A stretch of 64,000 nt of DNA from Moraxella catarrhalis (lineage in GTDB: Bacteria; Pseudomonadota; Gammaproteobacteria; Pseudomonadales; Moraxellaceae), in NCBI RefSeq assembly GCF_001656295.1, contig NZ_LXHE01000013.1, forward strand, positions 1 to 64,000. Direction: 5' to 3'. Below, one piece after another: positions 2,333 through 19,320 of the stretch. The position numbers and the translations under genes were made by a program. The first letter of the stretch is position 1. Each line of letters begins with the position of its first letter. The notes under the pieces were generated by a model. The model was not told where the DNA came from. It did no database searches and saw nothing but the letters and a program-made list of their open reading frames with translations.

Positions 2333-2392
2333 AAGGCGCTTTGAATCAGATGTTTGCCATTAGAATATAAAAATTAAAAATAAGGAACTGAT

Positions 2393-3472
2393 ATGGCATC
2401 AAATGCACGATTTGGTTTGCCCATTTGGTCAATGCTGTTGCCATTGGTGGCTTGGGGATTGTTTTTTGTTGGGATTAAGTCAAATATATGGCTGCAGATT
2501 TTGGGCGGCATATTCTTAATTGGCAGCGTGTTATCGGCAGTTTATCATGCTGAAGTGGTGGCGCATAAGGTTGGTGAGCCTTTTGGCACCATCATTTTGG
2601 CATTGGCGATTACCATCATCGAAGTGGCGCTGATTATCTCATTGATGGTCTCAGGCGGGGATAATGCAGCGTATTTACCTCGTGATACGGTTTTTGCAGC
2701 AATTATGTTGATTTTAAATGGGATCCTTGGGATGTCGCTGATGATTGGCGGACTAAAACATCGAGAACAATTTTTTGGGCAAAAATCTGCCAGTACCGCA
2801 CTCATCACCTTGGTGTCGATTTTGGTGATGACGCTGATTATGCCAAATTTTACCACTTCCACCACGCAAGGCACTTATTCATCAGCACAACTTATTTTTG
2901 TGGCGCTGGCATCTTTGGTCTTGTATGGTTCATTCATCATGGTTCAGACAGTGCGTCATCGTGATTATTTTTTGGCAGCTGATGATGATTTGGATCATCA
3001 TGCCGAGCCGCCGAGCGCTCAAGTGACCGCGGCAAGCTTTGTGTTTTTGTTGATCTGTTTGGGCATCGTTGTGATGCTTGCCAAAAGCCTAAGCCCTAGC
3101 ATTGAAGCTGCGGTGGTGGCGATGGGCGCACCAGCAGCACTGGTGGGTGTGATTATCGCTGCGGTGGTGCTGTTGCCAGAAGGCTTGGCGGCTTTGAATG
3201 CCGCGCGCCGCAACCGTTTTCAGACCAGCCTAAACCTAGCGCTGGGGTCAGCCTTAGCAAGCATTGGTCTGACCATTCCTGCGGTGACGATCGTGTGTCT
3301 GATGTATGACATTCCGCTGGTGCTGGGCTTGGATGGCAAATCCATGGTGCTGCTTGGTTTGTCCACCTTTATTGTCATGCTGTCGCTCAATCAAGGGCGC
3401 ACCAATATCTTGTATGGCATCGTGCTATTGGTCAATTTGGCAGCGTATATCTTTACTATCATCGTGCCTTGA
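2393..3472 (+). CDS. chaA: Calcium/proton (sodium/proton) antiporter ChaA
   Basis: Member of the CaCA superfamily, exchanging Ca2+ or Na+/K+ for protons at the inner membrane. The 359 aa protein (E. coli ChaA is 366 aa) is almost entirely hydrophobic with about 11 predicted membrane segments. The two alpha-repeats with acidic transport residues are visible: GEPFGTIILALAITIIEVAL near residue 62 and LLPEGLAALNAARRNRFQ near residue 260, followed by LALGSALASIGLTIPAV. The ATG at 2393 is preceded by aaggaa. It lies 60 bp after paeA on the same strand, so the two may be co-transcribed, making a small ion/polyamine homeostasis unit. Confidence 0.92.
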   Translation: MASNARFGLPIWSMLLPLVAWGLFFVGIKSNIWLQILGGIFLIGSVLSAVYHAEVVAHKVGEPFGTIILALAITIIEVALIISLMVSGGDNAAYLPRDTVFAAIMLILNGILGMSLMIGGLKHREQFFGQKSASTALITLVSILVMTLIMPNFTTSTTQGTYSSAQLIFVALASLVLYGSFIMVQTVRHRDYFLAADDDLDHHAEPPSAQVTAASFVFLLICLGIVVMLAKSLSPSIEAAVVAMGAPAALVGVIIAAVVLLPEGLAALNAARRNRFQTSLNLALGSALASIGLTIPAVTIVCLMYDIPLVLGLDGKSMVLLGLSTFIVMLSLNQGRTNILYGIVLLVNLAAYIFTIIVP

Positions 3473-3604
3473 TCGTTCGTGCTTAAGCTTAGTAATCTTT
3501 TTACAAAAAATAATACTCAGCGCTGATTTGTCTTGCATTCTAAAAATTATAATTTATAATAACTGCTAATATGTTCATTACTATTTATAATTAAAGGAAT
3601 TGCC

Positions 3605-4528
3605 GTGAGCACGACATTACGACAGCTAAGAGCCTTTGTGCTTGTCGCTGAACAAAATAGCTTCACCAAGGCAGCAGAGACGCTTTGCTTGACTCAGTCG
3701 GCGCTGTCTGGACTGATTAAGGAGCTTGAGCAGAATTTGGGCGTCAAGCTGTTCGACCGCACGACGCGCAAATTACATCTGTCTGATGCTGGTGTTCGGC
3801 TGCTGCCGCAGGCTCGGCGCGTGCTCAATGAGATGTCGGTCTTAAACGAAAAAGTCAGTAATCTGAAGTCGCTGCACCAAGGGCATGTGCGCCTAGCGGT
3901 CTCGCAGCAGCTATCCGCCAGTGCGATGCCAAAGTTTGTGGCGAAGTTTTGTGACATTCATCCTAATATCCAAGTGACGCTCACCGACTGCTCGGTCGAT
4001 GATGTGGTGGATCATATCGAAAATTTAGAAGCGGATTTGGGCGTTGCGCCTGAGCGTGCGTATTCTGATGATTTAGAAGCGGTTGTGTTGTTTTCTTCGC
4101 CATTTTATTTGGTGCTGCCTGCTACTCACCCATTTGCTAAAAAAGACGTTTTGCGCTGGACGGATTTATTAAATGAACGCTTGATCACGCTCAATGGTCC
4201 TTTTATCAAAAGCCTACAAAATGAGCTGCCTGCCCAAATTTCAAGCCGTATTTTTAATCCTGATTTTGAAGTTAATTTTTTATCGACAGCGCTTGGCATG
4301 ACGCGTATGGGGCTTGGTGTGACCTTGTGTCTGTTATACGCCGCTGAGTGGGTCGAACAAAATGGCTTGGTGATGCGACCGATCGCCGATCCTGTGGTTG
4401 AGCGAAAATTTTTATTATACATCCATAAAAACCGCTCTTTGTCACCTGCGGCATTGGCATTTAAGGAGTTTTTGGAGCAAAATGCGCACGAGTTTTTGGT
4501 CAGCCACTCAAAAGCAGCCGGCATCTGA
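3605..4528 (+). CDS. LysR-family transcriptional regulator
   Basis: Typical LysR-type regulator of 307 aa. The winged helix-turn-helix occupies about residues 4-62 (LRQLRAFVLVAEQNSFTKAA, then QSALSGLIKELEQNLGVKLF) and the periplasmic-binding-protein-like effector domain about residues 90-295. The start is GTG at 3605 with aaagga 7 bp upstream. The upstream gap is 132 bp. Unlike many LysR genes it is not divergent from a target: chaA precedes it and the aminotransferase gene follows on the same strand after 141 bp, so autoregulation or control of the downstream gene is possible but unproven. The ligand cannot be told from sequence. Confidence 0.9.
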   Translation: MSTTLRQLRAFVLVAEQNSFTKAAETLCLTQSALSGLIKELEQNLGVKLFDRTTRKLHLSDAGVRLLPQARRVLNEMSVLNEKVSNLKSLHQGHVRLAVSQQLSASAMPKFVAKFCDIHPNIQVTLTDCSVDDVVDHIENLEADLGVAPERAYSDDLEAVVLFSSPFYLVLPATHPFAKKDVLRWTDLLNERLITLNGPFIKSLQNELPAQISSRIFNPDFEVNFLSTALGMTRMGLGVTLCLLYAAEWVEQNGLVMRPIADPVVERKFLLYIHKNRSLSPAALAFKEFLEQNAHEFLVSHSKAAGI

Positions 4529-4669
4529 TCAGGCGCAAGCATTTGATTGGCAACCTTAAACGGTCTTAAAGGGTTTAAAAAACTTTTACCAAATTTTCAT
4601 CCAAAATGTATTGGATTTGCGTTATACTAACTGTGTTTTGATCAACTTGACAATGAAAAGGATAAGCCC

Positions 4670-5866
4670 ATGTTTGAACATGTGACCCCCTATGCAGGCG
4701 ACCCGATTTTGGGTTTGATGGATAAATATGCCCAAGACCCACGCGCTGACATCAAAGTCAATCTTGGCGTGGGCGTGTACTATACCGAAGATGGCAAATT
4801 GCCTGTGCTTGAGTGCGTGAAGACCGCCGAATCTCAAATCGTCAATCCGCCACGTCCCCGTGGATACCTGCCGATGGATGGTTTACCTGGTTATCGTCAG
4901 GCGTGCCAAGACTTGTTATTTGGTAAAAACCACCCAGCAGTTGTCGAAGGTCGTGTGGCGACCATCGCAACCTTGGGTGGTTCTGGCGCGCTCAAAGTTG
5001 GCGCTGACTTTATCCACGAGTGGTTCCCTGATGCCAAGTGCTATGTGTCGGATCCAACTTGGGCAAACCACATCGGTATCTTTGAAGGTGCGGGCATCGA
5101 AGTGGCAAAATATCCTTACTATGATCCTGCCACGATCGGTGTAAAATTTGATGAGCTGTGCGAGTTTTTCAAGACTTTGAATGAAAATGATGTGGTGCTA
5201 CTTCACCCATGCTGCCACAACCCAACTGGCGTGGATTTGACCCGCTCTCAGTGGGATATGTTATTACAAATTGTCAAAGATCAAAAGCTGATCCCATTCA
5301 TGGATATTGCTTATCAAGGCTTTGGCGATGATATGGATGAGGATGCGTACGCCATCCGCCGTGCGGTAGAGATGGGCTTGACGGTGTTTGTGTCGAATTC
5401 ATTCTCAAAAAATTTATCTTTATATGGTGAGCGTGTGGGTGGTTTATCTGTCGTTGCACCAACCAAACAAGAAGCCGATGTGGTGCTGGGTCAATTAAAA
5501 TTCACTGTTCGCCGTATCTACTCAAGCCCACCTGCGTATGGTAATTATATCGTGGATACCGTGATGAATGATGATGGGCTATTTAGACTGTGGGTGGGTG
5601 AGGTGTATGAGATGCGTGATCGCATCCGCGAAATGCGCGAAAAGCTTCAGGCTGCCTTGAGTGCTAAGCTGCCAGAGCGTGATTTTAGCTACTTCACCAA
5701 ACAGCGCGGTATGTTCAGCTTCACTGGTCTGACCAAAGAGCAAGTGATTCGTCTGCGTGAAGAATTTGCGGTATATATGGTTGAAAATGGTCGTATGTGT
5801 GTGGCAGGTCTGAATAATGCCAATGTAGAGTACGTCGCCAATGCCATGGCAGAAGTGCTGAGATAA
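4670..5866 (+). CDS. tyrB: Aromatic/aspartate amino acid aminotransferase
   Basis: PLP-dependent class I aminotransferase (fold type I, AspC/TyrB group), 398 aa as expected. It transfers amino groups between aromatic or acidic amino acids and 2-oxoglutarate in the cytoplasm. Visible signatures are KVNLGVGVYY near the N-terminus, HPCCHNPTGVD (cofactor-site Asn), FMDIAYQGFG and the Schiff-base lysine in NSFSKNLSLYGERVGG; the C-terminal RPxR-type region reads GRMCVAGLN. The ATG at 4670 has aaaagga upstream, and a TATACT hexamer at 4623-4628 may be the -10 box, though no convincing -35 is present. Whether it prefers aromatic acids or aspartate cannot be settled by motif reading, so tyrB is a probable symbol. 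Confidence 0.85.
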   Translation: MFEHVTPYAGDPILGLMDKYAQDPRADIKVNLGVGVYYTEDGKLPVLECVKTAESQIVNPPRPRGYLPMDGLPGYRQACQDLLFGKNHPAVVEGRVATIATLGGSGALKVGADFIHEWFPDAKCYVSDPTWANHIGIFEGAGIEVAKYPYYDPATIGVKFDELCEFFKTLNENDVVLLHPCCHNPTGVDLTRSQWDMLLQIVKDQKLIPFMDIAYQGFGDDMDEDAYAIRRAVEMGLTVFVSNSFSKNLSLYGERVGGLSVVAPTKQEADVVLGQLKFTVRRIYSSPPAYGNYIVDTVMNDDGLFRLWVGEVYEMRDRIREMREKLQAALSAKLPERDFSYFTKQRGMFSFTGLTKEQVIRLREEFAVYMVENGRMCVAGLNNANVEYVANAMAEVLR

Positions 5867-5880
5867 TTTGCATCATCTAA

Positions 5881-5909
5881 AAACACCAAATCACAAAGAT
5901 TTGGTGTTT
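5881..5909 (+). terminator. Intrinsic terminator-like hairpin after tyrB
   Basis: Perfect 12-bp inverted repeat (5881-5892 with 5898-5909), loop acaaa, arms ending in a TTT run. It sits 14 bp after the aminotransferase stop. The U-tract on the plus strand is short, so efficiency is uncertain. Confidence 0.7.
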
Positions 5910-5939
5910 ATTAGTCTAGTTTATGTGTGGATAATAAAC

Positions 5940-5955
5940 TGTTCCACGTGAAACG
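5940..5955. other. parS: parS-like ParB (Spo0J) binding site
   Basis: The 16-mer TGTTCCACGTGAAACG differs only in its last base from the B. subtilis parS sequence TGTTCCACGTGAAACA. It is a near-perfect palindrome around CACGTG and resembles the parS sites of Pseudomonas. It lies in non-coding DNA between two hairpins, between the convergent tyrB and pepA genes, exactly the kind of neutral position expected for a centromere-like site. In most bacteria parS sites cluster near oriC. I saw no second copy in the window. ParB binding itself is inferred. Confidence 0.85.
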
Positions 5956-5975
5956 ATCAAACTATACATAAAGAT

Positions 5976-6001
5976 AAAACGCTGCCCATCGGCAGCGTTT
6001 T
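5976..6001 (-). terminator. Intrinsic terminator after pepA
   Basis: Perfect 11-bp stem (5976-5986 with 5991-6001) with loop catc and A/T-rich arms, giving a U-run after the stem when read on the minus strand. It lies 18 bp beyond the pepA stop. Confidence 0.8.
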
Positions 6002-6019
6002 ACACGTTTGCAAATATTC

Positions 6020-7531
6020 TTAGGCTTGGCTGCGCAGATACTGAGTCAGTAGGGCGACAGGGCGACCTGAAGCACTGGCGGTGCTGCCACTTTTCCAAGC
6101 GGTACCAGCAATATCAAGGTGCGCCCATGCTTGACCTTCTTTGATAAATCTTTTTAAGAAACAGGCTGCAGTCACAGAGCCTGCTTCACGCCCCCCGATA
6201 TTTTGAACATCGGCGACTTTTGAATTCAGCTGCTCATTATACGTCTCATCCAAAGGCATGTGCCACACCAAATCCCCGGTGTATTCACTGGCTGCTTCTA
6301 AGGCAAATAAAGTATCTTCATCATTACTATACATGCCTGAGCGGACACTGCCAAGCGCAATCACACAAGCACCTGTCAATGTGGCAGTGTCAATGATGAC
6401 GCGCGCATCATAATGCTCTTGGACATAGCATAGTGCATCACACAGCACCAAACGCCCTTCGGCATCGGTATTTAAGATTTCAACAGTCGTACCATTCATG
6501 GCAGTCACGACATCACCAGGGCGAGAAGCACGTGCCGATGGCATATTTTCGGCGCAAGCAAGCACCGCCACCAAATCAATCTCAAGTCCAGCTTCGGCAA
6601 CCGCACGAACCGTGCCTAAGATGGATGCTGCACCGCCCATATCAAATTTCATCTCTTCCATGCCAGCAGCAGGTTTCAAAGAGATGCCGCCACTGTCAAA
6701 GGTCAAGCCCTTGCCAACCAAAGCAAACGGACGCTCAAGCTTGGATTTCTTGCCGCTTTTGCTGGATTTGCCATAATATTCGATGACGGCGAGTTTTCCT
6801 TCTGCATCTGAGCCTTGTGATACGGCGAGAAAACATCCCATACCAAGCTTTTGCATGTCTTTTTCGCCAAGTACGCTGACTGAGATGGTGTCTTCGTAAT
6901 CTTTGGCGAGCTGCTTTGCTTTTTGGGCAAGTTCGCTTGGATTTAGCAAATTTGGCGCTTCATTGGCAACATCACGCGCGGTAGTCATACCAGCCGCTGT
7001 TGCCTTGGCGAAGGTTAAGGCATTGTCATAGTCATCTTGAGCATCTTTATTGCTGATGATGATCACTTCTTCGAGCAAATCGGCATCTTTTGGCTTGGCT
7101 TTATGATGCTCAAAACGATATCCTGCACCAATCAATGCGGTAACAAATTGAGTAAAGTGAATTTGGCAAATGGTATCGCCCCATAAAATTGCCGCAGCTG
7201 GGGTATTTTTGATGGCTGTATAGACAGCTTGAGCAGCTTTGGCGATATTGTCAGCCAATTTATCTAATTTACCAATACCAACCACAGTCACCACAGGAAA
7301 ATCTTTGGCATGGATGGCATAATCAGTCACGCTATCGCCCATACCGCCCTTAAAATGACTTTGTTTGATCAAATCAGCGGCGCGCGATAGATATTCTGCA
7401 TCGCCCAAATTGCCCAAAATTTGACCTTGATCATCAGCAAATACTACGATGGTGGGCAGGGATTTATTTTTTGTGGCTTTTTTGAGCGACAGTGCGTCTT
7501 TGACACTGATATGAAATGTGTGTGCTGGCAT
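6020..7531 (-). CDS. pepA: Leucyl aminopeptidase (M17), PepA
   Basis: Cytosol aminopeptidase that removes N-terminal residues from peptides using two divalent metals. The 503 aa length matches the family. The C-terminal catalytic domain is clear: GKGLTFDSGGISLKP (metal and catalytic lysine region), KFDMGGAAS, and the M17 signature NTDAEGRLVLCDAL, then DTATLTGACVIALG. In E. coli PepA also binds DNA in Xer recombination and carAB control; the sequence cannot show whether that holds here. ATG at 7531 is preceded by aaggaaaa. It is divergent from lptF-lptG across a 272-bp gap, an arrangement common in gammaproteobacteria. Confidence 0.96.
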   Translation of the reverse strand: MPAHTFHISVKDALSLKKATKNKSLPTIVVFADDQGQILGNLGDAEYLSRAADLIKQSHFKGGMGDSVTDYAIHAKDFPVVTVVGIGKLDKLADNIAKAAQAVYTAIKNTPAAAILWGDTICQIHFTQFVTALIGAGYRFEHHKAKPKDADLLEEVIIISNKDAQDDYDNALTFAKATAAGMTTARDVANEAPNLLNPSELAQKAKQLAKDYEDTISVSVLGEKDMQKLGMGCFLAVSQGSDAEGKLAVIEYYGKSSKSGKKSKLERPFALVGKGLTFDSGGISLKPAAGMEEMKFDMGGAASILGTVRAVAEAGLEIDLVAVLACAENMPSARASRPGDVVTAMNGTTVEILNTDAEGRLVLCDALCYVQEHYDARVIIDTATLTGACVIALGSVRSGMYSNDEDTLFALEAASEYTGDLVWHMPLDETYNEQLNSKVADVQNIGGREAGSVTAACFLKRFIKEGQAWAHLDIAGTAWKSGSTASASGRPVALLTQYLRSQA

Positions 7532-7614
7532 ATCTTTTCCTTATTATATTGAGTGAATGAGTGAAGCTAACTGTAAGGTGATCCAAGCACCATATCAGCT
7601 CCCAAACTTAGTGT

Positions 7615-7642
7615 AGCATAAATGAAGGCATGAAAAAATCAA
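7615..7642 (-). promoter_or_regulatory. Candidate sigma-70 promoter for pepA
   Basis: Minus strand reads TTGATT, 16 bp, TATGCT (plus-strand 7637-7642 and 7615-7620). It points at pepA with a leader of about 75 nt. The hexamers match consensus only partly, so this is a candidate. Confidence 0.4.
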
Positions 7643-7803
7643 ATTTGCTTTATCTGATCAAATTGTGATTAAATCCAAGCAGTCACCTAAGCTTCGCTGC
7701 TGCAAAACTTGGCAACAAAATAAACCTAGCAAACCGCTTAAAACCGCCATGAATTTTTGCTATTATAAGCTATTTGCCACTTAATTTTTGGAAATCAAGC
7801 TTT

Positions 7804-8952
7804 GTGATTTTACGTCGCTATATCACCACACAAGTCGCTTCAACCACTGCCTTGGTTTTGGGTTTTTTGGTGATCATGCTGCTTGGTGGTCGTCTGATTC
7901 GCTATTTTGGGATGGCGGCAGAAGGTGGGCTCAATGTCGGCGTACTGTTTCGTCTGATTGGCTATAATTTGCCCTATTTTCTTGAGCTGATTTTACCGTT
8001 GTCTTTTTTTATTGGTTTGATGTTGGTGTTCGGGCGGCTGTATGCAGATCATGAAATGGCGGTGATGAATGCCAGTGGTATCAGCCGAGGGCGAGTGGCG
8101 CGCCTACTCATTCCGCTGGTGGCGGTGCTGATGTGTGTTGAGGGCTGGGTTTCTATGGTGGCTAAGCCTTGGGGTGTGGAGCGTGCTACCAATATTTGGC
8201 AAGAGCAGTCGGTGGCTCAGGTGTTTGACTTGATTCGCCCCCAAGAATTCATCAGTAGTGGCGATTATCACCTGTATGTGGGTGAGATGGGTGCCAATCG
8301 TGAATTTTTAAAAGATGTCATCATCATTCAGATGAATCCTGCCCAAACAAATAGTGCTAAGCCAAGCCAGACCGCTCAAAGAGATTCCATCATTTTTGCC
8401 AAATCTGCCACACATGTTGAGAATGCCAATGGGCAAATTCAGCTAGACTTGCAACAAGGTCGACGCTATGAAGTGGATCCGACCAGCCGCCAGTACAGTC
8501 AAATTGGCTTTGAGCGCTATCGCATTACCTTATCGGCAGAGCGCCCCGAAGGCACCAATCACATGCGCATCGAAGGCGTGAGTACTGCTGAGCTTTTATC
8601 AATCATTCAAGGGCGCTCCAAGCGTGATAATCCGCAAGAAGCATATGCCGAGCTCGGTTATCGTCTGAGCATGCCTTGGCTGATCTTATTGGCGATCTTA
8701 TTGGCGACCCCTTTATCTTATGTGCGACCGCGTCAAGGCAGATGGTACAAATTAGTGCCAGCGATTTTGATTTATGTTGCAGGCGTGCTTGTGGTGATTT
8801 CTTTAAAAGATACCATCATCAAAGGCAAATTACCACCAGTGATCTATGCGGCTGCTCTGCTGATGATGATGGCGGTTGCGATGTATCTGAATTATCATGG
8901 GCGAGTGATGGCGCGTCTTCGTCTTGAGCGTCAAGGTGGAGATGTGGCATGA
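7804..8952 (+). CDS. lptF: LPS export ABC transporter permease LptF
   Basis: One of the two inner-membrane permease subunits of the LptB2FGC machine that extracts lipopolysaccharide from the inner membrane. The protein begins ILRRYITTQVASTTALVLGF like other LptF proteins, followed by GGRLIRYFGMAAEGG, three N-terminal membrane segments, a periplasmic beta-jellyroll (about residues 125-270) and three C-terminal membrane segments. GTG at 7804 (382 aa) aligns with the family N-terminus; a TTG at 7774 would add 10 residues. The stop overlaps the lptG start by 4 bp (ATGA), so the two are translationally coupled. A 12-bp direct repeat at 8682-8705 encodes LILLAILLAT in a membrane segment. Confidence 0.92.
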   Translation: MILRRYITTQVASTTALVLGFLVIMLLGGRLIRYFGMAAEGGLNVGVLFRLIGYNLPYFLELILPLSFFIGLMLVFGRLYADHEMAVMNASGISRGRVARLLIPLVAVLMCVEGWVSMVAKPWGVERATNIWQEQSVAQVFDLIRPQEFISSGDYHLYVGEMGANREFLKDVIIIQMNPAQTNSAKPSQTAQRDSIIFAKSATHVENANGQIQLDLQQGRRYEVDPTSRQYSQIGFERYRITLSAERPEGTNHMRIEGVSTAELLSIIQGRSKRDNPQEAYAELGYRLSMPWLILLAILLATPLSYVRPRQGRWYKLVPAILIYVAGVLVVISLKDTIIKGKLPPVIYAAALLMMMAVAMYLNYHGRVMARLRLERQGGDVA

Positions 8953-10058
8953 AATCGTGGATTTTACCAAAATATGTCATCCGCTCGGCACTACTTGCTA
9001 TGACAGGCGCTGTGGTGGGCTTATGGCTTTTACAGATGATATTTGCCTATTTGGCTGAACTTGATAATATCAGTGAGACCTATACGCTGACTGATGCGCT
9101 GCTGTTCATTTTATATCGCTCACCTTATTTTTTGGTGCAATTTATCCCCACTGGCGCGCTCTTGGGTGCGGTCATTGGGCTTGGGCTGCTTGCCAATCAC
9201 AGCGAACTGATCGTGATGCGAGCTGCAGGCATGAGTATCTATCGCGTCATCAGCTGGGCGATGCTACCTGCGGTCATTTTTGTTGTGATCTCACTGGGCG
9301 TGAATCAATTTGTGCTGCCTGCCGCCAACCAGCACGCTGCCGCCATCCGAGCAGATACCATGTATGATAAGCTTATCACCATTAATGGCTATTGGTCGGT
9401 GAATAATGATGGCGGTAATCAAGATGTGGTGTATATCAGTTATGCTGATAATGAAGGCAGGCTTGGGGAAGTTAAGCGCTATCAGCTCAAAGACGGTCAG
9501 CTGATCGCTGCACTTAAGGCACAGACAGGCGTATATTTGCCACAGTCTGATGATGTGATAAATGCACAAAAAGCCCGCTATACTTGGCAGTTATCAGGCA
9601 TTGATGAGATTAGTATCGGCACATCACAAGTGCAACAAGCACACAGTGAAGGCAAAATACTGACCTTACCGATTGCACCGACGGATGTGTATTTATTGAC
9701 CAAAGAGCCTGAAGATCTATCGCTCAGCGATTTGTATGCGCACAGGCAGCTCATGACCCACCAAGGCACACGCTCACTGCGTCATGAATTGGCATTTTGG
9801 CAAAAGCTACTTTCGCCTTTTGCGGTGCTGTCACTGGTGTTGGTGGCATCATCCTTTGTCTTTGGTTCGCTACGCTCCCAAGGCTTGGGACTGCGAGTGG
9901 TCTTGGCACTTTTGACGGGACTTTTGTTCAGTTATTTGACCGATTTGGCGGGTTTTGTGGCTTTGGCGACTGGGCTATCGCCACTGTTGATGGCGCTGGT
10001 GCCGATTGTGCTATCGGCTGTGGCGGGCATCTATCTACTTAATCGTAAATCAAGCTAA
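8949..10058 (+). CDS. lptG: LPS export ABC transporter permease LptG
   Basis: Partner of LptF in the lipopolysaccharide exporter. Length 369 aa is normal. It has the same plan: N-terminal membrane segments (LLAMTGAVVGLWLLQMIFAY, then SPYFLVQFIPTGALLGAVIG), the conserved coupling region SELIVMRAAGMSIYRV that contacts LptB, a periplasmic jellyroll about residues 130-265, and three C-terminal membrane segments ending AVAGIYLLNRK. The start ATG lies inside the lptF stop. No obvious terminator is seen before the convergent DUF1615 gene, which ends 85 bp further on. Confidence 0.94.
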   Translation: MKSWILPKYVIRSALLAMTGAVVGLWLLQMIFAYLAELDNISETYTLTDALLFILYRSPYFLVQFIPTGALLGAVIGLGLLANHSELIVMRAAGMSIYRVISWAMLPAVIFVVISLGVNQFVLPAANQHAAAIRADTMYDKLITINGYWSVNNDGGNQDVVYISYADNEGRLGEVKRYQLKDGQLIAALKAQTGVYLPQSDDVINAQKARYTWQLSGIDEISIGTSQVQQAHSEGKILTLPIAPTDVYLLTKEPEDLSLSDLYAHRQLMTHQGTRSLRHELAFWQKLLSPFAVLSLVLVASSFVFGSLRSQGLGLRVVLALLTGLLFSYLTDLAGFVALATGLSPLLMALVPIVLSAVAGIYLLNRKSS

Positions 10059-10142
10059 GCTGCTCACAGGGCATGAATAAAGATCTTTAAAAAGTCATTA
10101 TCAGCACAAAAGCTTAAACCAAATCTTGAAAACAGCCAAGCT

Positions 10143-11303
10143 TTAGCCTAAGCGGTGGCGCTTGGCGGTGGTCATGCAGGTCTGATAACGCTTATCAACG
10201 CGCGTGGCAAACCAGTTGGTATCAAAGTTTTGGCTAAGCTTAGGTCCTGAAATCACGACCTTAGGCATGATGGCATAAGCAGGCGCGCGCCCAAATTTAT
10301 CGGTAAACATCTCATCGACCGCACGATAAGTCGCCGTCTGTTCAAAGGCGCTTGTTTTTTCTTTTTTAAAGTCAGCGCGGATTTGGCGAGCGCTCACAGG
10401 CTTGGCAGCATTGGCAAGCAAGCGAATGGTAGCCGCTTCTGTATCAGAGATTTTGCTCAGTGGGCTGCCATCTTTATACAGCAGTAAATCTCCATCAATC
10501 GCTAAGGTATCGCCGCTCAAAGTGGCGATCCGCTGCTGAAAGGCGGCATTTCGGCTTGAATACACCCCTGAATTATAATCAGCAAAGCGATACAAGGGCT
10601 TATCATACTCCGCGCGATACATCATCAGCCGATGTATGCCATAGTATAAGCCGCCGTAGCGCGTGTACAGATCGGCGCGCAGATCACGATCGCTCATGCT
10701 CGCACGGCGATGCGCTCGCGCGTAGTCGATGTGCACTTGCATAGAGCCCAAAGTGGTCACAGGATTGATGCGCTCATCAATGCCTTGACCTGACAGCCTG
10801 GTGATGTTAGTCAAGGGCGAGACTTTATAAGTTTTGGCAAAATAATCAAAAATCTCTCGGTACAGCTCATCGAGCTGCTTTTCGGTTTTGACGGCTTTGA
10901 TTTGTTTGATAAAATTATTTTCAGGTGTCGGGCGCGTCTCAAGCATAGTGCGAAACACGCTCGCCATATTTTTGCCAAGCTTGTCTTCTAGCTTATCATC
11001 AATCGCTTTTAGAGCGGCATTGCCTAGATTGGGCACGCTTGGGTCGGCATGAAAATTGGATTCTTGGTCGATCACAGCGATGGCGGTGCAGATATTTTGG
11101 GTGGTCTTGGGTAAGGACAATTCATCAAAAATATCGCTAATATCAGCTGCCCATAGCTTGGCGTTATTGACACGCTTGGGGATTAATTTGGTGATTTGGG
11201 CATCGCTGAGCGTAGGCTTGTCTGTGATGGTCTGCTTGACTGCATCACAGCCTGACAAAACCACGGCACACAATAAAATACTAGTAGGATACATTTTACG
11301 CAT
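10143..11303 (-). CDS. DUF1615-family lipoprotein, possible peptidoglycan lytic enzyme
   Basis: Predicted lipoprotein of 386 aa: signal peptide MYPTSILLCAVVLSGC with lipobox LSGC, so anchored in the envelope. The rest matches the DUF1615 family by memory of its conserved blocks: CTAIAVIDQESNFHADPSVP and, later, VTTLGSMQVHID. A Glu in a QESxF..DP context followed by a GSMQV motif resembles the ES...GxMQ signature of goose-type/SLT lysozyme-like enzymes, so a lytic transglycosylase role is a reasonable inference, not shown. Translation could start at the ATG at 11303 or two codons later. It is convergent with lptG and lies head to head with a small plus-strand ORF. Confidence 0.75.
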   Translation of the reverse strand: MRKMYPTSILLCAVVLSGCDAVKQTITDKPTLSDAQITKLIPKRVNNAKLWAADISDIFDELSLPKTTQNICTAIAVIDQESNFHADPSVPNLGNAALKAIDDKLEDKLGKNMASVFRTMLETRPTPENNFIKQIKAVKTEKQLDELYREIFDYFAKTYKVSPLTNITRLSGQGIDERINPVTTLGSMQVHIDYARAHRRASMSDRDLRADLYTRYGGLYYGIHRLMMYRAEYDKPLYRFADYNSGVYSSRNAAFQQRIATLSGDTLAIDGDLLLYKDGSPLSKISDTEAATIRLLANAAKPVSARQIRADFKKEKTSAFEQTATYRAVDEMFTDKFGRAPAYAIMPKVVISGPKLSQNFDTNWFATRVDKRYQTCMTTAKRHRLG

Positions 11304-11356
11304 CTGATCTACATTCCAAACGATTTACTCAAGAAACCATAAAGACGGTGAGGCGG

Positions 11357-11521
11357 ATGATGCTCAAAAAGGCAACATCGCTAAAGGCAGCTTATAGTAA
11401 TTCTACAGCTGATTTTCGTCAAGCGCTGACACAAAAATACACCATCGCGCAAGAAGTTTGCGCCAATTTTGATAAAAACGACTTTGGCGCATACGTTCAA
11501 GCAATGCTTAAGGCAATTTAG
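11357..11521 (+). CDS. Small hypothetical ORF (54 aa)
   Basis: Small open frame in the 214-bp gap between the DUF1615 gene and tesB. It starts ATGATG at 11357 preceded by ggtgaggcgg, a good Shine-Dalgarno, and ends TAG at 11519-11521, overlapping the tesB stop by four bases. The product begins MMLKKATSLKAAYSNSTADF and ends FGAYVQAMLKAI; it is soluble, basic at the N-terminus and probably helical. I do not recognise a family. The ribosome binding site and normal codon use argue for a real gene; the short length argues for caution. Confidence 0.4.
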   Translation: MMLKKATSLKAAYSNSTADFRQALTQKYTIAQEVCANFDKNDFGAYVQAMLKAI

Positions 11522-12480
11522 CTATTAGTAAAGATGCTTGGATCATCATGCAGGCGCATCAAGCCTTCTTGCTGAGCTGAAGCGATGAGCTTACCATCTT
11601 GCCAAAATTGACCGTGATTAAGTCCTTTGGCGTGACTGGTGGTGTCGCTCCACATGTCATAAAGTAAATATTCGGTGATATCAAACGGGCGATGAAAGTG
11701 CATGGAGTGATCGATACTTGCCATCTGTAAGCCGCGCGTCATAAAGCTCAAACCATGGCTCATCAGACCCGTCCCTGCCAAATAATAATCGGACACAAAC
11801 GCAAGCAGAGCTTGATGAATGGCAACTGGCTGCTCGCCGATGTCATTAACGCGCACCCAACTGGCTTGGCGCGGGCGCTGAGGCTCAGGTGCCACTGGAT
11901 CTCTGGGCATGATGGGGCGAATCTCAACATGACGCGGACGCATATAGCGTGCTCTGAGCGGCTCTGGGATCTTGTGCAGATATTGAGTTTTTAGTTCTTG
12001 TTCGGTTTTGACACTGGTTGGCGGCGGATATTCGGGCATGGACTCTTGATAATCTAGCCCACCTTCCATTGGCGAGAATGAAGCAATCATCGAAAAAATC
12101 ACCTGCTCACTGGTGGTGTCTTTGCCATCTTTGTCGGTGGTTGGCACATATTGCACCGCGATGACTTCACGGGCTGATAGGCTGCGACCATCACGCAGGC
12201 GGCGCACCTGATAGACGATTGGTAGGCGAATATCACCGCCGCGCAAAAAATATCCATGCAGGCTATGACAAGGCTTATCAATGGTCAATGTATTGGCAGC
12301 AGCCATCAGGGCTTGGGCGAGCACTTGCCCACCAAAAACCCTAGGTCCGACATAGTCATAGCTAGGTCCTTCATAGACATTGTCGGCAATTTCTTTGAGT
12401 TTTAGTGTATCTAATAAATCTGCGATATCGGCATGCGCCGCTTCAGGCGGCAAGGCATAACGGTCAAGAGAGTATTTCAT
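11518..12480 (-). CDS. tesB: Acyl-CoA thioesterase II TesB
   Basis: Double-hotdog thioesterase that hydrolyses medium and long-chain acyl-CoA to free fatty acid and CoA in the cytoplasm. Family blocks are GPRVFGGQVLAQALMAA, HSLHGYFLRGGD, LRDGRSLSAREVIAVQ in the first hotdog and ALLAFVSDYYLAGTGL plus SIDHSMHFHRPFD in the second. I start at the ATG at 12480 (MKYSLDRYALPPEA, 320 aa) because it fits the family N-terminus; an in-frame ATG at 12522 would add 14 residues with no family match. Slightly longer than E. coli TesB (286 aa) because of an insert with PMPRDPVAPEPQRPR-like composition. Confidence 0.9.
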   Translation of the reverse strand: MKYSLDRYALPPEAAHADIADLLDTLKLKEIADNVYEGPSYDYVGPRVFGGQVLAQALMAAANTLTIDKPCHSLHGYFLRGGDIRLPIVYQVRRLRDGRSLSAREVIAVQYVPTTDKDGKDTTSEQVIFSMIASFSPMEGGLDYQESMPEYPPPTSVKTEQELKTQYLHKIPEPLRARYMRPRHVEIRPIMPRDPVAPEPQRPRQASWVRVNDIGEQPVAIHQALLAFVSDYYLAGTGLMSHGLSFMTRGLQMASIDHSMHFHRPFDITEYLLYDMWSDTTSHAKGLNHGQFWQDGKLIASAQQEGLMRLHDDPSIFTNS

Positions 12481-12700
12481 AATCCGCTCAAAACATAGTC
12501 GTAAAGCGATGCTAAGACACAAATAGCTTGGCTAATCACATGGCCAATCATCCAGGTTATCAAGCTAAACCCAAAAGGCTGCATCGCCTTTGATATAAAT
12601 GTGAAAATGCTAAAATTATACCACTTTTTTTATCAATTTTTTAGGCAAAAAACCCAAACAATGATAAAATAAAAATTCACTTCTTTGTATTGATGGATTT

Positions 12701-15274
12701 ATGCGAAAACTTGTAAATTTGCTCAAGAAAGCCAGCAGCCAACCCGAACAAAGCTCGACAGCCCACCCACAAAAAGACAGCCCTGCCCGCTTACCAAGCC
12801 CATATCGCCGGGCTTCAGCCAAAGGATTGTCGCTTGCAGTCAAGCCGACCTTGATCGGCGAAGTGCCAACGCTTGATGATGCCGTGCCCACCTTTTATGT
12901 GATCCGCGCTTATTCACGCTCGAACAGTTTGTTGGTTGGGATGCAGACAGATGCGCTTGGCTTACCTTCGGCGCTTGCAGAAGTCGATACCAAAGACATC
13001 CACGAAACCTCAGCGATGATTTTTTTAAAGGATCGTCGCACAGAGTCTGCCAATGGACATGTGCCACGCCTTGAAAGGCTGATTCAAGCATGCCTTGAAA
13101 ATCCTGAACTAAAAATCAATCTTGTGCCTGTCACGATCCTATGGGGACGCGCGCCGGACAAAGAAGAGTCGTTATTTCGCTTGCTGATGGCAGATGAATG
13201 GGAGTCGCCTTCTAAAGCCAAGCAGCTATTTAATATCGGCGTGATGGGACGAGATACCTTTGTGCGTTTTTCAGAGCCTAAGGATCTACAAGTGTTGATC
13301 AACGAAGCTAAAGCCCAGTCACCAGATCGCATCACGCCAACCATCACCGCGCGCCTTCAGGGTTATTTAGACAAGCAGCGCACCAGTATCGTCGGACCTG
13401 ATTTGTCTGATAAGCGTAATGTGGCAGGCGCGATCTTATCATCGCCTGAAGTGATGCGTGCTATTGAAAAACAAGCAGCAGAAACTGGCAAGCCCATCGC
13501 CGCCGTCAAAGCCGAAGCCCAAGGCTATCTGAGCGAGATTGCAAGCAATTATTCTCATTCAGTGGTGCGCTTTTTTGATCATTTTTTAACTTGGCTGTGG
13601 ACGCGGCTGTATGACGGCGTTGAGGTGCGCCACTTCGAGCGCGTGCGTGCGCTTGCCCCAGATTATCAGATCGTTTATGTGCCGTGCCATCGCAGCCATG
13701 TGGATTATCTGCTGCTGTCTTATGTGATTTATAAGCGAGGGTTGCGCATTCCGCATGTGGCAGCCGGTGAGAATTTAAACATTCCAGTGCTTGGCGATCT
13801 GTTAAGAAGCGGTGGGGGGTTTTTTATGCGCCGCAGCTTCAAGGGCAATGCGCTTTATAGTACCGTCTTTAAAGAATATGTACACAGCCTCATGCAGCGT
13901 CAGGCTCCGATTGAGTATTTCATCGAAGGGGGGCGCTCACGCACAGGTCGCCTGCTACCGCCTAAGCTTGGTATGCTTGCGATGACAGTGAACAGCTATT
14001 TGCGTGAGCCTGCCAAGCCGGTCGCGTTCATCCCAACTTATATCAGCTATGAGCGCATTATGGAAGGCGCCACATATGTCGGTGAACTCAAAGGCAAACC
14101 CAAAGAAAGCGAAAATTTATTAGGTCTACTAAAAACCGCACGTAAGATTGAGCGTATCTTTGGGACAGTGCATTTGGCGTTTGGCGATCCTTTGTATTTG
14201 ACCGATTTCATGGCGAAATTTAACGTCAATCCTACCGACGCCAGTGATGACAATGTCAAAAACACGCACGCCATGGTCCAAAACTTAGGCGTCAAGGTGA
14301 TGCAAAACATCAATAAAGCCGCCGTGGTCAATCCTGTCTCGCTGCTTGCGCTTGCGCTCCTATCAACGCCAAACGCCGCGCTTGATGAAGCGCAATGCCT
14401 TGAGCAGATCCGCCTGTATCAGCACATCGCCCAAGCGCTGCCATACGATGCGGACACTCATGTGACTGATATGACGCCAAGGCAGATTTTGGACTATGGC
14501 GTGCAGCTAAAGCTCATCGAGCGCACCCCGCATATCTTGGGCGACATGATCCGTGTGGCGGATAAGCAAGCGCCGCTTTTGTCTTATTTTAGAAATAATA
14601 TTTTGCATGTGTTTATCATTGCAAGCTTTTTGGCGGCGCTTGTCCAAAGAAATGGTCGAATTCATCGTGATAGACTTGATGGGATCACCGAGCTTTTGTA
14701 TCCATTTTTGCAAAGCGAGCTGTTCTTAAAAATGGCGCTTAGAAATATCGCCGATCATGTGCATCAGGTACTCAATCTGCTGATCGAACAAGGTGTGATC
14801 GTGGACTTGGGGCAAGGTGTGGTCGGTAGCCCTGAGGGCAATTCTCAAGCCTATCAAAAGCTCATCGTGCTGGCAAGCCCCGCGCAGCAAAGTCTTGAGC
14901 GTTATTTTATGGCGCTGACACTGCTGTCTAAGCAAGGCTCAGAGCGCCTGACGACCGAGCAAGTGGTCAATCTGTGCTATGTCGTCGGTCAGCGGGTGTC
15001 AGTGCTGCACGCTGACGACTTGCCAGATATGTTTGATAAGGCATTATTTACAAGTTTTATTGATACTTTGGTGCGTGTCGGTTATGTCAGCATCGATACA
15101 GACACAAACCTATTATCCTTTGATGAGCGCATTGATCGCATTGCAGAGTTTGCAAAATTTGTGCTCCAGCCAGATGTGATGCAGGTGCTGACACATACCG
15201 CAAGCCTTTCTGATGATGAGCTTAGCCTAGCCATGGCAAGCATGGAGAAAAAAAGGAAGTTTGGGCGGGGGTAG
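12701..15274 (+). CDS. plsB: Glycerol-3-phosphate 1-O-acyltransferase PlsB
   Basis: Membrane-associated enzyme that acylates glycerol-3-phosphate, the first step of phospholipid synthesis. Length 857 aa fits PlsB (E. coli 807). The four acyltransferase motifs are visible: VPCHRSHVDYLLLSY (HX4D catalytic pair) about residue 325, GGFFMRRSF about 368, YFIEGGRSRTGRLLPPK about 405, and PVAFIPTYISYE about 435. The N-terminus is rich in Ser, Pro and basic residues. ATG at 12701 follows tgatgga. It is divergent from tesB across about 220 bp, so fatty-acyl-CoA use and hydrolysis genes share an intergenic control region. Confidence 0.96.
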   Translation: MRKLVNLLKKASSQPEQSSTAHPQKDSPARLPSPYRRASAKGLSLAVKPTLIGEVPTLDDAVPTFYVIRAYSRSNSLLVGMQTDALGLPSALAEVDTKDIHETSAMIFLKDRRTESANGHVPRLERLIQACLENPELKINLVPVTILWGRAPDKEESLFRLLMADEWESPSKAKQLFNIGVMGRDTFVRFSEPKDLQVLINEAKAQSPDRITPTITARLQGYLDKQRTSIVGPDLSDKRNVAGAILSSPEVMRAIEKQAAETGKPIAAVKAEAQGYLSEIASNYSHSVVRFFDHFLTWLWTRLYDGVEVRHFERVRALAPDYQIVYVPCHRSHVDYLLLSYVIYKRGLRIPHVAAGENLNIPVLGDLLRSGGGFFMRRSFKGNALYSTVFKEYVHSLMQRQAPIEYFIEGGRSRTGRLLPPKLGMLAMTVNSYLREPAKPVAFIPTYISYERIMEGATYVGELKGKPKESENLLGLLKTARKIERIFGTVHLAFGDPLYLTDFMAKFNVNPTDASDDNVKNTHAMVQNLGVKVMQNINKAAVVNPVSLLALALLSTPNAALDEAQCLEQIRLYQHIAQALPYDADTHVTDMTPRQILDYGVQLKLIERTPHILGDMIRVADKQAPLLSYFRNNILHVFIIASFLAALVQRNGRIHRDRLDGITELLYPFLQSELFLKMALRNIADHVHQVLNLLIEQGVIVDLGQGVVGSPEGNSQAYQKLIVLASPAQQSLERYFMALTLLSKQGSERLTTEQVVNLCYVVGQRVSVLHADDLPDMFDKALFTSFIDTLVRVGYVSIDTDTNLLSFDERIDRIAEFAKFVLQPDVMQVLTHTASLSDDELSLAMASMEKKRKFGRG

Positions 15275-15511
15275 AATAGTAGTGGCAGCATAATTTTATT
15301 TAATTTATTAAATTCAAGAGAGTAGCCATGAATAAATCTTAAGCAGATATTAACAAATATCAATACCTGCTTATCCACATTTTGTCTTAACTTTTGTATA
15401 TTAACAAGTGGATGAACTATCACTTGGACCGGCGGCTTATGCTCAGGTGATTGGCTAGTGCCTAAACTTATTTTATTTTGAAATTTTAACCAATTCGTTA
15501 GATTTAATATT

Positions 15512-16381
15512 ATGATGAACACCCCCACCCACGCCATTATCCCCACCGCAGGCTTTGGGACGCGTATGCTGCCTTTATCTAAGGCGGTGCCCAAAGAGCT
15601 TTTACCCTTAGGGGACAAGCCTGCCATTCATTATGTCGTCACAGAAGCGGTGCGTGCTGGCATCAAAAACATCGTGCTGGTCAACCACGCCCAAAAGTCC
15701 GCCATTGAAAACTACTTTGACATCAACGCTGAGCTTGACAGTCAGCTACGCCAAAAAGGCAAAGACGGTTTGGCAGACAGCCTAAACTTTTTGCCTGAGG
15801 ATGTGCGTGTGGTGAGTGTACGCCAAGGCAGACCATTGGGGCTGGGTCATGCGGTGCTACAAGGGCGTGCGGTGGTGGGCGATAATCCCTTTGCCGTGCT
15901 GCTGCCTGATGTCGTGTTAGACCCATTTACCACGGATTTTGGGGCGGATAATTTGGCGTATATGATGACACAATTTGCCCAAACGGGCCGCAGTCAGATT
16001 TTGGTTGACCCTGTGGCGGACAGCGATGTGCATAAATACGGCATCGCACGGCTCAGTGATAAATTAAGCGTCCAAAAATCAAGTACCAATCAATCATTTG
16101 ATGTGCTGGGTTTTGTAGAAAAACCCAGTCTGGATGTGGCACCGTCCAATTTGGCGGTGGTGGGGCGGTATGTGTTTAGTCCTGAGATTTTTGAGTATTT
16201 GGCCAAAACCAAGCCAAGCGTGGGTGGTGAGATTCAGCTGACCGATGCCATTGACGCACTCATCAGCCAGCAGGGCATGGATGTGGTTACGATGAAAGGT
16301 CCAAGCTTTGATGCTGGCGATATGACGACCTATGTACAGGCATTTGCTTATTTTGCCAGTCAAATGGGCAAGTCGTTTTAA
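15512..16381 (+). CDS. galU: UTP-glucose-1-phosphate uridylyltransferase GalU
   Basis: Makes UDP-glucose from UTP and glucose-1-phosphate, feeding lipooligosaccharide and capsule synthesis. The nucleotide-binding start PTAGFGTRMLPLSKAVPKEL is followed by KPAIHYVVTEAVRAGI, LGLGHAVLQGRAVVGDNPF and GFVEKPS; 289 aa is normal. Either of two tandem ATGs (15512, 15515) may be used; there is no strong ribosome binding site. It opens a run of same-strand genes galU-pgi-(UGD homologue)-galE with gaps of 31, 3 and 19 bp, so an operon for hexose-phosphate and UDP-sugar metabolism is likely. The 237 bp upstream contain no gene. Confidence 0.95.
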   Translation: MMNTPTHAIIPTAGFGTRMLPLSKAVPKELLPLGDKPAIHYVVTEAVRAGIKNIVLVNHAQKSAIENYFDINAELDSQLRQKGKDGLADSLNFLPEDVRVVSVRQGRPLGLGHAVLQGRAVVGDNPFAVLLPDVVLDPFTTDFGADNLAYMMTQFAQTGRSQILVDPVADSDVHKYGIARLSDKLSVQKSSTNQSFDVLGFVEKPSLDVAPSNLAVVGRYVFSPEIFEYLAKTKPSVGGEIQLTDAIDALISQQGMDVVTMKGPSFDAGDMTTYVQAFAYFASQMGKSF

Positions 16382-16412
16382 TTTTTATCAAACCATAAAA
16401 TGAGGACGGCTG

Positions 16413-18032
16413 ATGACGACTTGGCATGATTTACAGGCACTGGCACGCACACCGATCGAGTTGCAGCAGCGATTTGCTGACGATGAGACACGCGGTCAAA
16501 GGCTATCTGCTTTTGCTTGCGATATTTATATGGATTTTAGCAAGCAGGCGATCGATGATGAAATTTTGGCAAAGCTCATTCAGCTTGCCGATACATTTAA
16601 TTTATCCCAAAAAATCAGTGATCTTATCAGTGGCGAAAAGGTCAATGACACCGAGCAAAGGGCAGCGCTTCATACCGCGCTTCGACTACCTAAAGGCGAG
16701 ACGCTCGTCGTCGATGGCGTCGATGTAGGGCAGCAGGTGCATAACAGCCTAGATAAATGCGAGGTGTTGGTCAATCGCATTCGTAGCGGCGTGTGGCGTG
16801 GCTACTCGGGCAAGGCGATACGCGATGTGGTTAATATCGGTGTGGGCGGTTCGGATTTGGGTCCTTTGATGGCATCCACAGCGCTGTCTGAGTGGGCGGA
16901 TACGGATATTTGCGTTCACTTTGTGTCTAATATGGACGGCACGCAGTTAGATAGCCTATTAAAAGTACTCAATCCGCAGACGACTTTATTTATCATCTCG
17001 TCTAAGTCTTTTGGGACGATAGACACTTTATCCAATGCCAAAACTGCCTTAAGCTGGCTGCTGGCTGCTCATGATCATAAGCCGACGATTTTACGCCGTC
17101 ATTTTATTGGCATCTCCACGCGACCTGATAAGATGAGCGACTGGGGCATCCATCCCGATAATCAGCTGCTTTTGTGGGACTGGGTTGGCGGCAGATTTAG
17201 TATGTGGTCAGTGATTGGGCTTGCGATCGCAGTGCGTATCGGTATGGCTAACTTTCGGTCACTATTGGCAGGCGCACATGAGATGGATCGGCATTTTGCT
17301 AAGGCCGATTTTTCAAAAAATTTACCAGTGCTCATGGGGCTGATTGGGGTGTGGAATGCCACTTTTTTAGGCATTAATGCACATACCGTACTGCCTTATG
17401 ATGGCAGACTTGAGTATTTTCCCAATTATTTGACGCAGCTTGAGATGGAGTCTAACGGCAAATCGGTCAAACGATGCGGCGAGTCGGTGGACTATGGCAC
17501 TTGCCCGATTTTGTGGGGTGATATCGGCTCAAATGCACAGCACGCATTTTATCAGCTTTTGCATCAGGGTACGCAGCGGGTATCTTGTGATTTTATCACG
17601 CCGATTCGCCGCTATAATGATGCACAAGTGGCAAATGCTTACTTGGCTGATCAGCACAAATTATCTTTGGCAAACTGTCTGGCGCAGTCGCAAGTGCTTG
17701 CTTTTGGCAATGCCGCGTTGCCTTCTAGTATGATAAATAGTACCGATGATTTTGCTAAATTTAAAGAATATCGGGGCAATCAGCCCTCAACCACGATGTT
17801 ATTAAGCGATCTGAACCCCAAGACTTTGGGTGCTTTGATTGCCTTATATGAGCATAAAGTCTATGTGATGAGTGTGCTTTGGCAAATTAATCCCTTTGAT
17901 CAATGGGGCGTTGAAGTCGGTAAGGTCATGGCAAACCGTGTCTATGATGAGCTATCAAACGTGCATGATGCAGATCAATTTGACAGCTCTACCAATACGC
18001 TTTTGTCTGTCATTAAGCGCGCTCAAGGATAA
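16413..18032 (+). CDS. pgi: Glucose-6-phosphate isomerase Pgi
   Basis: Interconverts glucose-6-phosphate and fructose-6-phosphate. Length 539 aa is typical. Signatures in order: GVGGSDLGPLMAS, FVSNMDGTQ, ISSKSFGTIDTLSNA (phosphate loop), GGRFSMWSVIGL, LTQLEMESNGKSVKR with the catalytic Glu, LLHQGTQRVSCDFI with the catalytic His, and INPFDQWGVEVGK with the catalytic Lys. ATG at 16413 follows gagg. In organisms of this family that lack a full glycolysis, Pgi works mainly in gluconeogenesis, supplying glucose-6-phosphate for GalU via phosphoglucomutase; its place next to galU and galE fits that. Confidence 0.97.
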   Translation: MTTWHDLQALARTPIELQQRFADDETRGQRLSAFACDIYMDFSKQAIDDEILAKLIQLADTFNLSQKISDLISGEKVNDTEQRAALHTALRLPKGETLVVDGVDVGQQVHNSLDKCEVLVNRIRSGVWRGYSGKAIRDVVNIGVGGSDLGPLMASTALSEWADTDICVHFVSNMDGTQLDSLLKVLNPQTTLFIISSKSFGTIDTLSNAKTALSWLLAAHDHKPTILRRHFIGISTRPDKMSDWGIHPDNQLLLWDWVGGRFSMWSVIGLAIAVRIGMANFRSLLAGAHEMDRHFAKADFSKNLPVLMGLIGVWNATFLGINAHTVLPYDGRLEYFPNYLTQLEMESNGKSVKRCGESVDYGTCPILWGDIGSNAQHAFYQLLHQGTQRVSCDFITPIRRYNDAQVANAYLADQHKLSLANCLAQSQVLAFGNAALPSSMINSTDDFAKFKEYRGNQPSTTMLLSDLNPKTLGALIALYEHKVYVMSVLWQINPFDQWGVEVGKVMANRVYDELSNVHDADQFDSSTNTLLSVIKRAQG

Positions 18033-18035
18033 TTT

Positions 18036-19301
18036 ATGAAACATATCTACGTGATCGGTCATCAGCACGAAGCCATCAATGCTTGCTTGTGGTTGGCAAG
18101 TTTGGATTATGAAGTTCGTTTGCTTGCAGATGAGCAAGATATCCAAGCGACACTTGAGCATTATCAATTTGACCATCAAATGTCAGCGCTGTGGCAACTG
18201 TACCTTGCCCAACATAAAATCATCATTAGCGATAGTCAAATACAGGCATTTTTAGCATCTGTACAGGCCAAGCTTTTGTGGCTGTTTTTGGATGATGTCG
18301 GTGAATATCTGATTGATCAAGTCGTCAATGCAGTGGACAGTCCGCACAGTCAAGTGATCTTAAGCGGTGTGCGCTCAATTGGTAATATTGGGGCACTGGC
18401 ACAGCGAATTAAGTCATCTTGGGTGTATTATTTGCCCATCAGCTTTATGAAAGATGGGGCGAATTTTAATGCGTTTTATCATTCAGATTTGGTCATGATT
18501 GGCGAAAAAACCAAGGACAGTGTGGCGCATTGTGAGGTGTTATTAAGACTCAAGCAGCACGCCCAAAACTGCCAAATCGCTGATATCGTCACGATAGAAT
18601 TTGCCCGAAGTACTATGATGGCGATGCTTGCAACTCGCCTGTCCTTTATGAATGAAATGGCAAGACTGGCTGATAAGCAAGGGGTCAATATCAAGTCAGT
18701 TGAGCGAATCATCGCCCAAGATAGCCGTATCGGTCCTGCGTATCTGTCAGCAGGGTGGGGTTTTGGCGGTAAAACACTACCGCATGAGCTTGAGCTTTTG
18801 ATGGATAAGTTTAAACAAAATCGTGTCGATACCTCGCTCATCAGCGCCGTCAATCACATTAATGACGACCAAAAAGAGCTGATTTTTCGCAAGTTTTGGC
18901 GATATTTTAATGGCTTTATTGAGCAAAAGGCAGTGATGATTTGGGGTACTGGCTATCGCAAGGGTGCCTCTCGCATGACTCATTCTGCCATTCATCCACT
19001 GCTGAAGCTTTTGTGGTCTTATGGGATTCATACTCGTGTTTTTACGCGTAACACCGCCTTTGAGATGCAGTCGATTTATGGCGGGCATCCGATGTTGACT
19101 TTGACCCATGATCCATATCAGGATCTATCAAAGGTGGATGCGCTGTTTATTGTCAACTGGTCTTTGCTGACTCAGCCAGACGTTCATACGCTCAATCAGG
19201 TGAATATTCCGATTTTTGATGCCAAAAATATTTTGGACGATGACAGTGTTGTGGCGCTCACAGTGCCCTATTATGGCATCGGACGAGAAAAACGAGAGTA
19301 G
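18036..19301 (+). CDS. UDP-glucose/GDP-mannose dehydrogenase homologue with degenerate active site
   Basis: Length (421 aa) and layout match UDP-glucose dehydrogenase: N-terminal Rossmann domain, middle helical domain, C-terminal domain with VMIWGTGYRKGASRMTHSA. Key residues are changed. The dinucleotide loop reads VIGHQHEA instead of GxGxxG. The catalytic cysteine motif GFGGSCFPKD reads GFGGKTLPHE, with Thr at residue 247 in the Cys position. The Lys/Asn helix before LATRLSFMNE has Arg 191 and Met in place of the usual Lys and Asn. The frame is intact and coupled to pgi (3 bp gap), so it is likely expressed. I infer a pseudoenzyme with a structural or regulatory role, or a different chemistry; oxidation of UDP-glucose by the usual mechanism is unlikely. 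Confidence 0.75.
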   Translation: MKHIYVIGHQHEAINACLWLASLDYEVRLLADEQDIQATLEHYQFDHQMSALWQLYLAQHKIIISDSQIQAFLASVQAKLLWLFLDDVGEYLIDQVVNAVDSPHSQVILSGVRSIGNIGALAQRIKSSWVYYLPISFMKDGANFNAFYHSDLVMIGEKTKDSVAHCEVLLRLKQHAQNCQIADIVTIEFARSTMMAMLATRLSFMNEMARLADKQGVNIKSVERIIAQDSRIGPAYLSAGWGFGGKTLPHELELLMDKFKQNRVDTSLISAVNHINDDQKELIFRKFWRYFNGFIEQKAVMIWGTGYRKGASRMTHSAIHPLLKLLWSYGIHTRVFTRNTAFEMQSIYGGHPMLTLTHDPYQDLSKVDALFIVNWSLLTQPDVHTLNQVNIPIFDAKNILDDDSVVALTVPYYGIGREKRE

Positions 19302-19320
19302 TTCATTACAGGGGGGTGCC

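Follow-up and report, generated by a model that had tools for sequence, protein, structure and literature searches.

A probable chromosomal parS site between tyrB and pepA in Moraxella, and a lead linking parS cores to ACGT depletion in the genus

Results

The window analysed here covers the initial 64 kb of contig C14 in a Moraxella draft genome (G000; 2.23 Mb, 26 contigs). Positions 5940–5955 very probably hold a true chromosomal parS site, one that ParB would bind and that belongs to the outer origin domain. The basis for this reading is the sequence match, the clustering of the whole set of sites at the origin, the keeping of the position in kin, and the presence of ParA-like and ParB genes. 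The initial annotation was right about the site, which is ordinary as a parS site. It adds an origin-domain parS for the genus Moraxella; among the open-access matches listed, none by title or abstract gives an account of chromosomal parS in this genus.

The site and its neighbours

The site lies in a 153-bp gap (5867–6019, stop codon to stop codon) between a tyrB-like gene and pepA. The features of the region are:

4670..5866, + strand: tyrB-like aromatic amino acid transaminase, left neighbour (NF006719, 567.6 bits, cut-off 377)
5881..5909, + strand: hairpin 3' of the aminotransferase gene, 12-bp stem, 5-nt loop, weak T tail (sequence and fold)
5940..5955, no strand: probable parS site TGTTCCACGTGAAACG with intact CACGTG core (sequence; one of 9–11 genome sites; M. 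cuniculi counterpart)
5976..6001, − strand: terminator-like hairpin 3' of pepA (fold and terminator scan)
6020..7531, − strand: pepA, leucyl aminopeptidase, right neighbour, convergent (NF002074, 528.3 bits, cut-off 415)

The sequence TGTTCCACGTGAAACG agrees at 15 of 16 letters with TGTTCCACGTGAAACA, the B. subtilis parS form quoted in the initial annotation. It is the single match to TGTTNCACGTGRAAC within the 64-kb window, and none of 100 shuffles contained a match. The earlier description of the 16-mer as parS-like is borne out by these comparisons, and its non-coding, convergent location by the gap itself. Its palindromic character holds for the inner CACGTG, which is perfect, but not for the full 16-mer, in which six of eight pairs form and the outermost and C5/A12 pairs fail. 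Two hairpins do flank the site as described; of the two, the terminator scan called the right one (5976–6001) but not the left one (5881–5909).

parS sites cluster at the origin

Genome-wide, the pattern TGTTYCACRTGRAAC recovers 9 distinct sites and the 14-mer GTTYCAYRTGRAAC recovers 11, against 0.15 expected for the 14-mer from base composition (taken from the window) and none for the backward control. The 11 sites are distributed over contigs C20 (six), C7 (two), C23, C4 and C14 (one each). Those on C20 lie at 6.3–23.4 kb, within ~15 kb of dnaA, which occupies 8.7–10.0 kb of that contig. The genome-wide count suggested in the initial annotation thus gives clustering at dnaA, the opposite of an origin-unrelated scatter. 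Open reading frames are overlapped by 8 of the 10 own-genome sites examined and avoided by two. An intact CACGTG core is present at two of the 11 sites, the window site included, and the other nine carry CACATG/CATGTG. Two parS-like sites, C20:14759 and C20:14798, stand 39 bp apart in one reading frame; G013 and G003 also have pairs at this spacing.

Five relatives have their chromosome in a single contig, and in each of them every listed site falls within 69–201 kb of dnaA:

G004: 9 sites, all within 69 kb of dnaA (15-mer pattern)
G006: 11 sites, all within 201 kb of dnaA (14-mer pattern)
G010: 13 sites, all within 112 kb of dnaA (15-mer pattern)
G012: 15 sites, all within 138 kb of dnaA (15-mer pattern)
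G013: 16 sites, all within 137 kb of dnaA (14-mer pattern)

Since C14 is not joined to C20, the distance of the window site from dnaA is inferred from these relatives. In G010 the tyrB–pepA junction is separated from dnaA by 56 kb, in G006 by 59 kb. From pepA to dnaA the distance is 44 kb (G013), 67 kb (G004) or 409 kb (G012), and the location therefore varies within the genus. According to PMC5098823, parS in P. aeruginosa must sit in a ~650-kb zone around oriC, by which measure a site at about 55–60 kb would be well placed.

GC skew on the + strand is positive in 14 of the window's 16 bins of 4 kb and close to zero in the remaining two. With the change of sign at dnaA on C20, this suggests an origin on the left side of the window. 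The evidence is mild, because the skew of C20 wavers about zero to the right of 30 kb. Placement in the origin domain, which the initial annotation had proposed, is supported by the six of 11 sites near dnaA, by the distances in relatives and by the junction in two of them. The accompanying comparison with dnaA and parAB held one surprise: the sites cluster at dnaA, but parB, unlike in other chromosomal parS systems, lies 0.68–0.91 Mb from dnaA in all five relatives, where parS stays at the origin.

Conservation among relatives

The 11 sites were projected through alignments of flanking DNA onto parts of G013, G003 and G021 mostly chosen around the sites of those genomes, and within these parts all 11 have a counterpart in one or more of the three genomes, no further than 90 bp from where the projection puts it. 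The tyrB–pepA gap of G003, judged to be Moraxella cuniculi DSM 21768 by an identical gap, carries GGTTTCATGTGAAACG, while the rest of that gap does not align with the window; the chance expectation of a site there is 2e-5. A search within 1.5 kb of pepA, allowing up to two mismatches, found a site only in G000 and G003 among 21 genomes. Seventeen named tyrB loci were examined with flanks of at most 4 kb, and M. cuniculi alone has a site; none was found in the five other tyrB–pepA gaps examined (L024/G014, L029, G010, G006 and L033/G009). G021 aligns at the locus and has no site there. The position of the window site is thus conserved in close kin only (M. cuniculi) and absent in more distant species.

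In G013, tyrB and pepA are on opposite sides of dnaA, and the nearest site is 630 bp from the projected place; we are unsure whether it is the same site. The genes at 2384–5863 and at 6023–20367 of the window map to opposite sides of dnaA in that genome, the left ones inverted. On these alignments, an origin-spanning rearrangement appears to separate the window from G013, with a breakpoint at the parS-bearing gap.

ParB, the par locus and alternative readings of the site

The genome contains a single ParB-family (TIGR00180) match, with ParB_N, HTH_ParB and ParB_C domains, and a ParA-like frame (recognised by likeness, not by family search) directly upstream of it. For segregation in P. aeruginosa, a single one of the four oriC-nearest parS sites suffices, whichever it is (PMC4368675). 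The ParB of this genome, with its CTPase-type N-terminal, helix-turn-helix and dimerisation domains, would nucleate on the window site, close as a CTP clamp and then slide outwards. It would aid ParA, and SMC loading, in segregating the origin region, and spreading from a convergent gap would leave coding DNA largely undisturbed.

A small gene (frames of 133–177 aa) lies between parA and parB in G000, G003 and G013 (own genome C18, L018:638-1171; L063:751-1152; L066, reverse strand). It carries a copy of the ParB N-terminal peptide (KKRGLGxxRGLDALL-like), then a middle that varies (in G013 it contains VEP repeats) and, near FWQFGL, a C-terminal motif that is conserved. The two copies tested gave no Pfam match. 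The product is possibly a ParA-activating peptide that acts on its own.

Near-palindromic sequences in intergenic DNA can act as operators, and the window site might accordingly bind another protein, either a ParB paralogue of the Noc type or a regulator acting on the neighbouring genes. We give this almost no credence, because the gap is convergent and so contains no gene start, and because overlap with reading frames at 8 of 10 examined sites and clustering at dnaA fit parS better than operators. A Noc-type site was rejected as well: its consensus TATTTCCCGGGAAATA has a CCCGGG core (PMC7383237), which is absent at the window site with its CACGTG, and the genome has one ParB-family match, with no second one to serve as a Noc paralogue. 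The same paper quotes TGTTTCACGTGAAACA as the consensus of chromosomal parS. A chance match, or a decayed and unbound remnant of parS, is also very unlikely when only 0.15 sites are expected genome-wide, when the window site keeps the CACGTG seen at so few own-genome sites, and when its counterpart stands inside an otherwise unalignable M. cuniculi gap. Such a reading would account for a gap site in just two of 21 genomes, and it draws on P. aeruginosa, where, as reported in PMC5098823, ParB in vivo is mostly on four of ten proposed sites, so that a good parS sequence may be unoccupied elsewhere too.

As a functional chromosomal parS, the reading we prefer, the site belongs to a set that shares with the known system 15 of 16 letters of the B. 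subtilis form, the core, multiple copies and an origin cluster, and differs from it in the CACATG/CATGTG cores of 9 of 11 sites. The likeness extends to parS1–10 of P. aeruginosa, which are multiple, lie mostly in the ori domain and include variants off the perfect palindrome (PMC4368675, PMC5098823). There, an intact CACGTG core is reported as important for ParB, and parS5, with TACATG instead, binds worst (PMC4368675); unlike this, CACATG cores are the rule in eight Moraxella genomes depleted of ACGT. These genomes are described below.

Core type and ACGT depletion across Moraxella

In general, parS is regarded as highly conserved among bacteria. We counted cores at TGTTYCACRTGRAAC sites in 21 readable Moraxella genomes, excluding G007, which gave no match to anything, dnaA and PepA included; the pattern is mildly biased towards CACGTG sites, for which a match on either strand is possible. 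The observed/expected ratio of ACGT is 0.01–0.29 in eight genomes (76.5–240 kb sampled) and 0.52–0.79 in 13 (31.5–97 kb sampled). CACATG/CATGTG cores are in the majority in all eight depleted genomes, where CACGTG makes up 9 of 69 sites, and CACGTG accounts for 67–94% of sites in 10 of the 13 undepleted ones. Two undepleted genomes, G018 and G020, are also mostly CACATG. The CACGTG/total counts are:

Depleted genomes, TGTTYCACRTGRAAC: G000 2/9, G003 0/6, G004 2/9, G006 1/9, G009 0/5, G013 0/10, G016 2/9, G021 2/12
14-mer pattern: G000 2/11, G003 1/13, G006 1/11, G013 1/16
Remaining undepleted genomes: G015 2/4, G020 2/5, G018 0/3

ACGT depletion and core type correlate with a Spearman rho of 0.73 (p 1.6e-4, a value that ignores kinship). 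Among the other 15 four-letter palindromes the next strongest are CATG (0.52) and CGCG (−0.47), with p-values that likewise ignore kinship. A change in place is seen about +3.7 kb from dnaA, where G010 has TGTTTCACGTGGAACA and G004 and G006 have TGTTTCATGTGGAACA. Within sampled DNA, GTTYCANNTGRAAC has CG at its centre 9 times and CA/TG 68 times in depleted genomes, and in the others CG 55 times, CA/TG 14 times and TA once; no other letters occur there. The 9 intact cores kept among the 69 sites of depleted genomes compare with 10.1 expected if the core were as free to vary as any ACGT.

The mean ratio for ACGT is 0.11 in the eight genomes and 0.67 in the 13, and for its neighbour ATGT 0.88 and 0.86; the one-letter neighbours of ACGT show no depletion. 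ACGT is thus depleted relative to its sub-words while its neighbours are not, and with no excess of ATGT this looks like restriction-type avoidance and not deamination. Deamination of methyl-cytosine as the cause of the loss was rejected on the missing ATGT excess. Avoidance of the hexamer CACGTG itself was also rejected, as its counts reach the sub-word expectation in all seven genomes tested. No PF00145 (cytosine-5) methyltransferase was found to track the depletion, and the search gave no match in G000, G003, G006 and G021, four of the eight depleted genomes. In sampled DNA of the genus, GGCC, CCGG, GCGC, CGCG and GATC are among the most depleted palindromes in different species; such multiple depletion points to a past rich in restriction systems.

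A change of ParB specificity was rejected as a simple cause of the core shift, the helix-turn-helix stretch MSHAMIADVVGKARATVSNLLRL being identical, among close species of one clade, in the CACATG species G004, G006 and G009 and in the CACGTG species G001, G010 and G014. In the other depleted clade (G000, G003 and G013) the stretch reads IASVVGKARTTVSNL(M/L)RL and contains a serine that is absent from the other 15 aligned genomes, which have aspartate, glutamate or glutamine. By this residue, ParB may still have contributed to the shift in that clade. The alignment leaves out G018, whose stretch reads MSHATIAQMVGKARTTISNLLRL, and G016 and G021, in which the search gave no ParB match.

On the PepA tree (21 rows) the depletion needs three changes and provides 2–3 independent contrasts, of which on average 1.7 are in the expected direction, 0.3 show no difference and none is opposite; the sign test is not significant. 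With 2–3 independent switches only, we regard the association between core type and ACGT as a lead. Another genus of the family, g3, perhaps Psychrobacter, has a CACGTG fraction of 0.27–0.70 in 10 genomes with undepleted ACGT (0.83–1.04), counted by merging two patterns that differ by one letter. Its sampled DNA has 29 CG and 42 CA core centres, and an eleventh g3 genome, G093, outside the ACGT comparison, has 10 CACGTG and one CACATG. The supposition that CACATG cores need ACGT depletion is therefore wrong; CACATG is tolerated more widely than ACGT is depleted, and depletion would at most extend this tolerance. In G056, G122, G276 and G348, from three further genera of the family, CACGTG sites are present and no CACATG 16-mer was found.

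Tentatively, a pressure directed at ACGT (restriction, with the enzyme present or lost) may have turned the central CpG of most parS sites into CpA/TpG in place, in part of Moraxella, as the ParB of the family would tolerate exactly that. We think this possible but doubtful: the unchanged helix-turn-helix stretch in one of the two affected clades supports it, and it is weakened by the ParB residue that differs in the second clade and by G018 and G020, which are mostly CACATG without depletion. By title or abstract, nothing on point for parS and restriction avoidance appeared among the open-access matches listed, and an open-access search on ACGT methylation in Moraxella gave no papers. Were the ACGT pressure real, the window site would be a surviving intact-core, probably stronger, site. 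A genus in which the core tracks avoidance of a four-letter word would then serve as a natural experiment in parS recognition by ParB, bearing on whether restriction can remodel a centromere, and this side finding would matter more than the site. The other intact-core site of the genome, C20:18065, lies inside a reading frame and is matched by a CACGTG site in G003, G013 and G021 despite their ACGT depletion.
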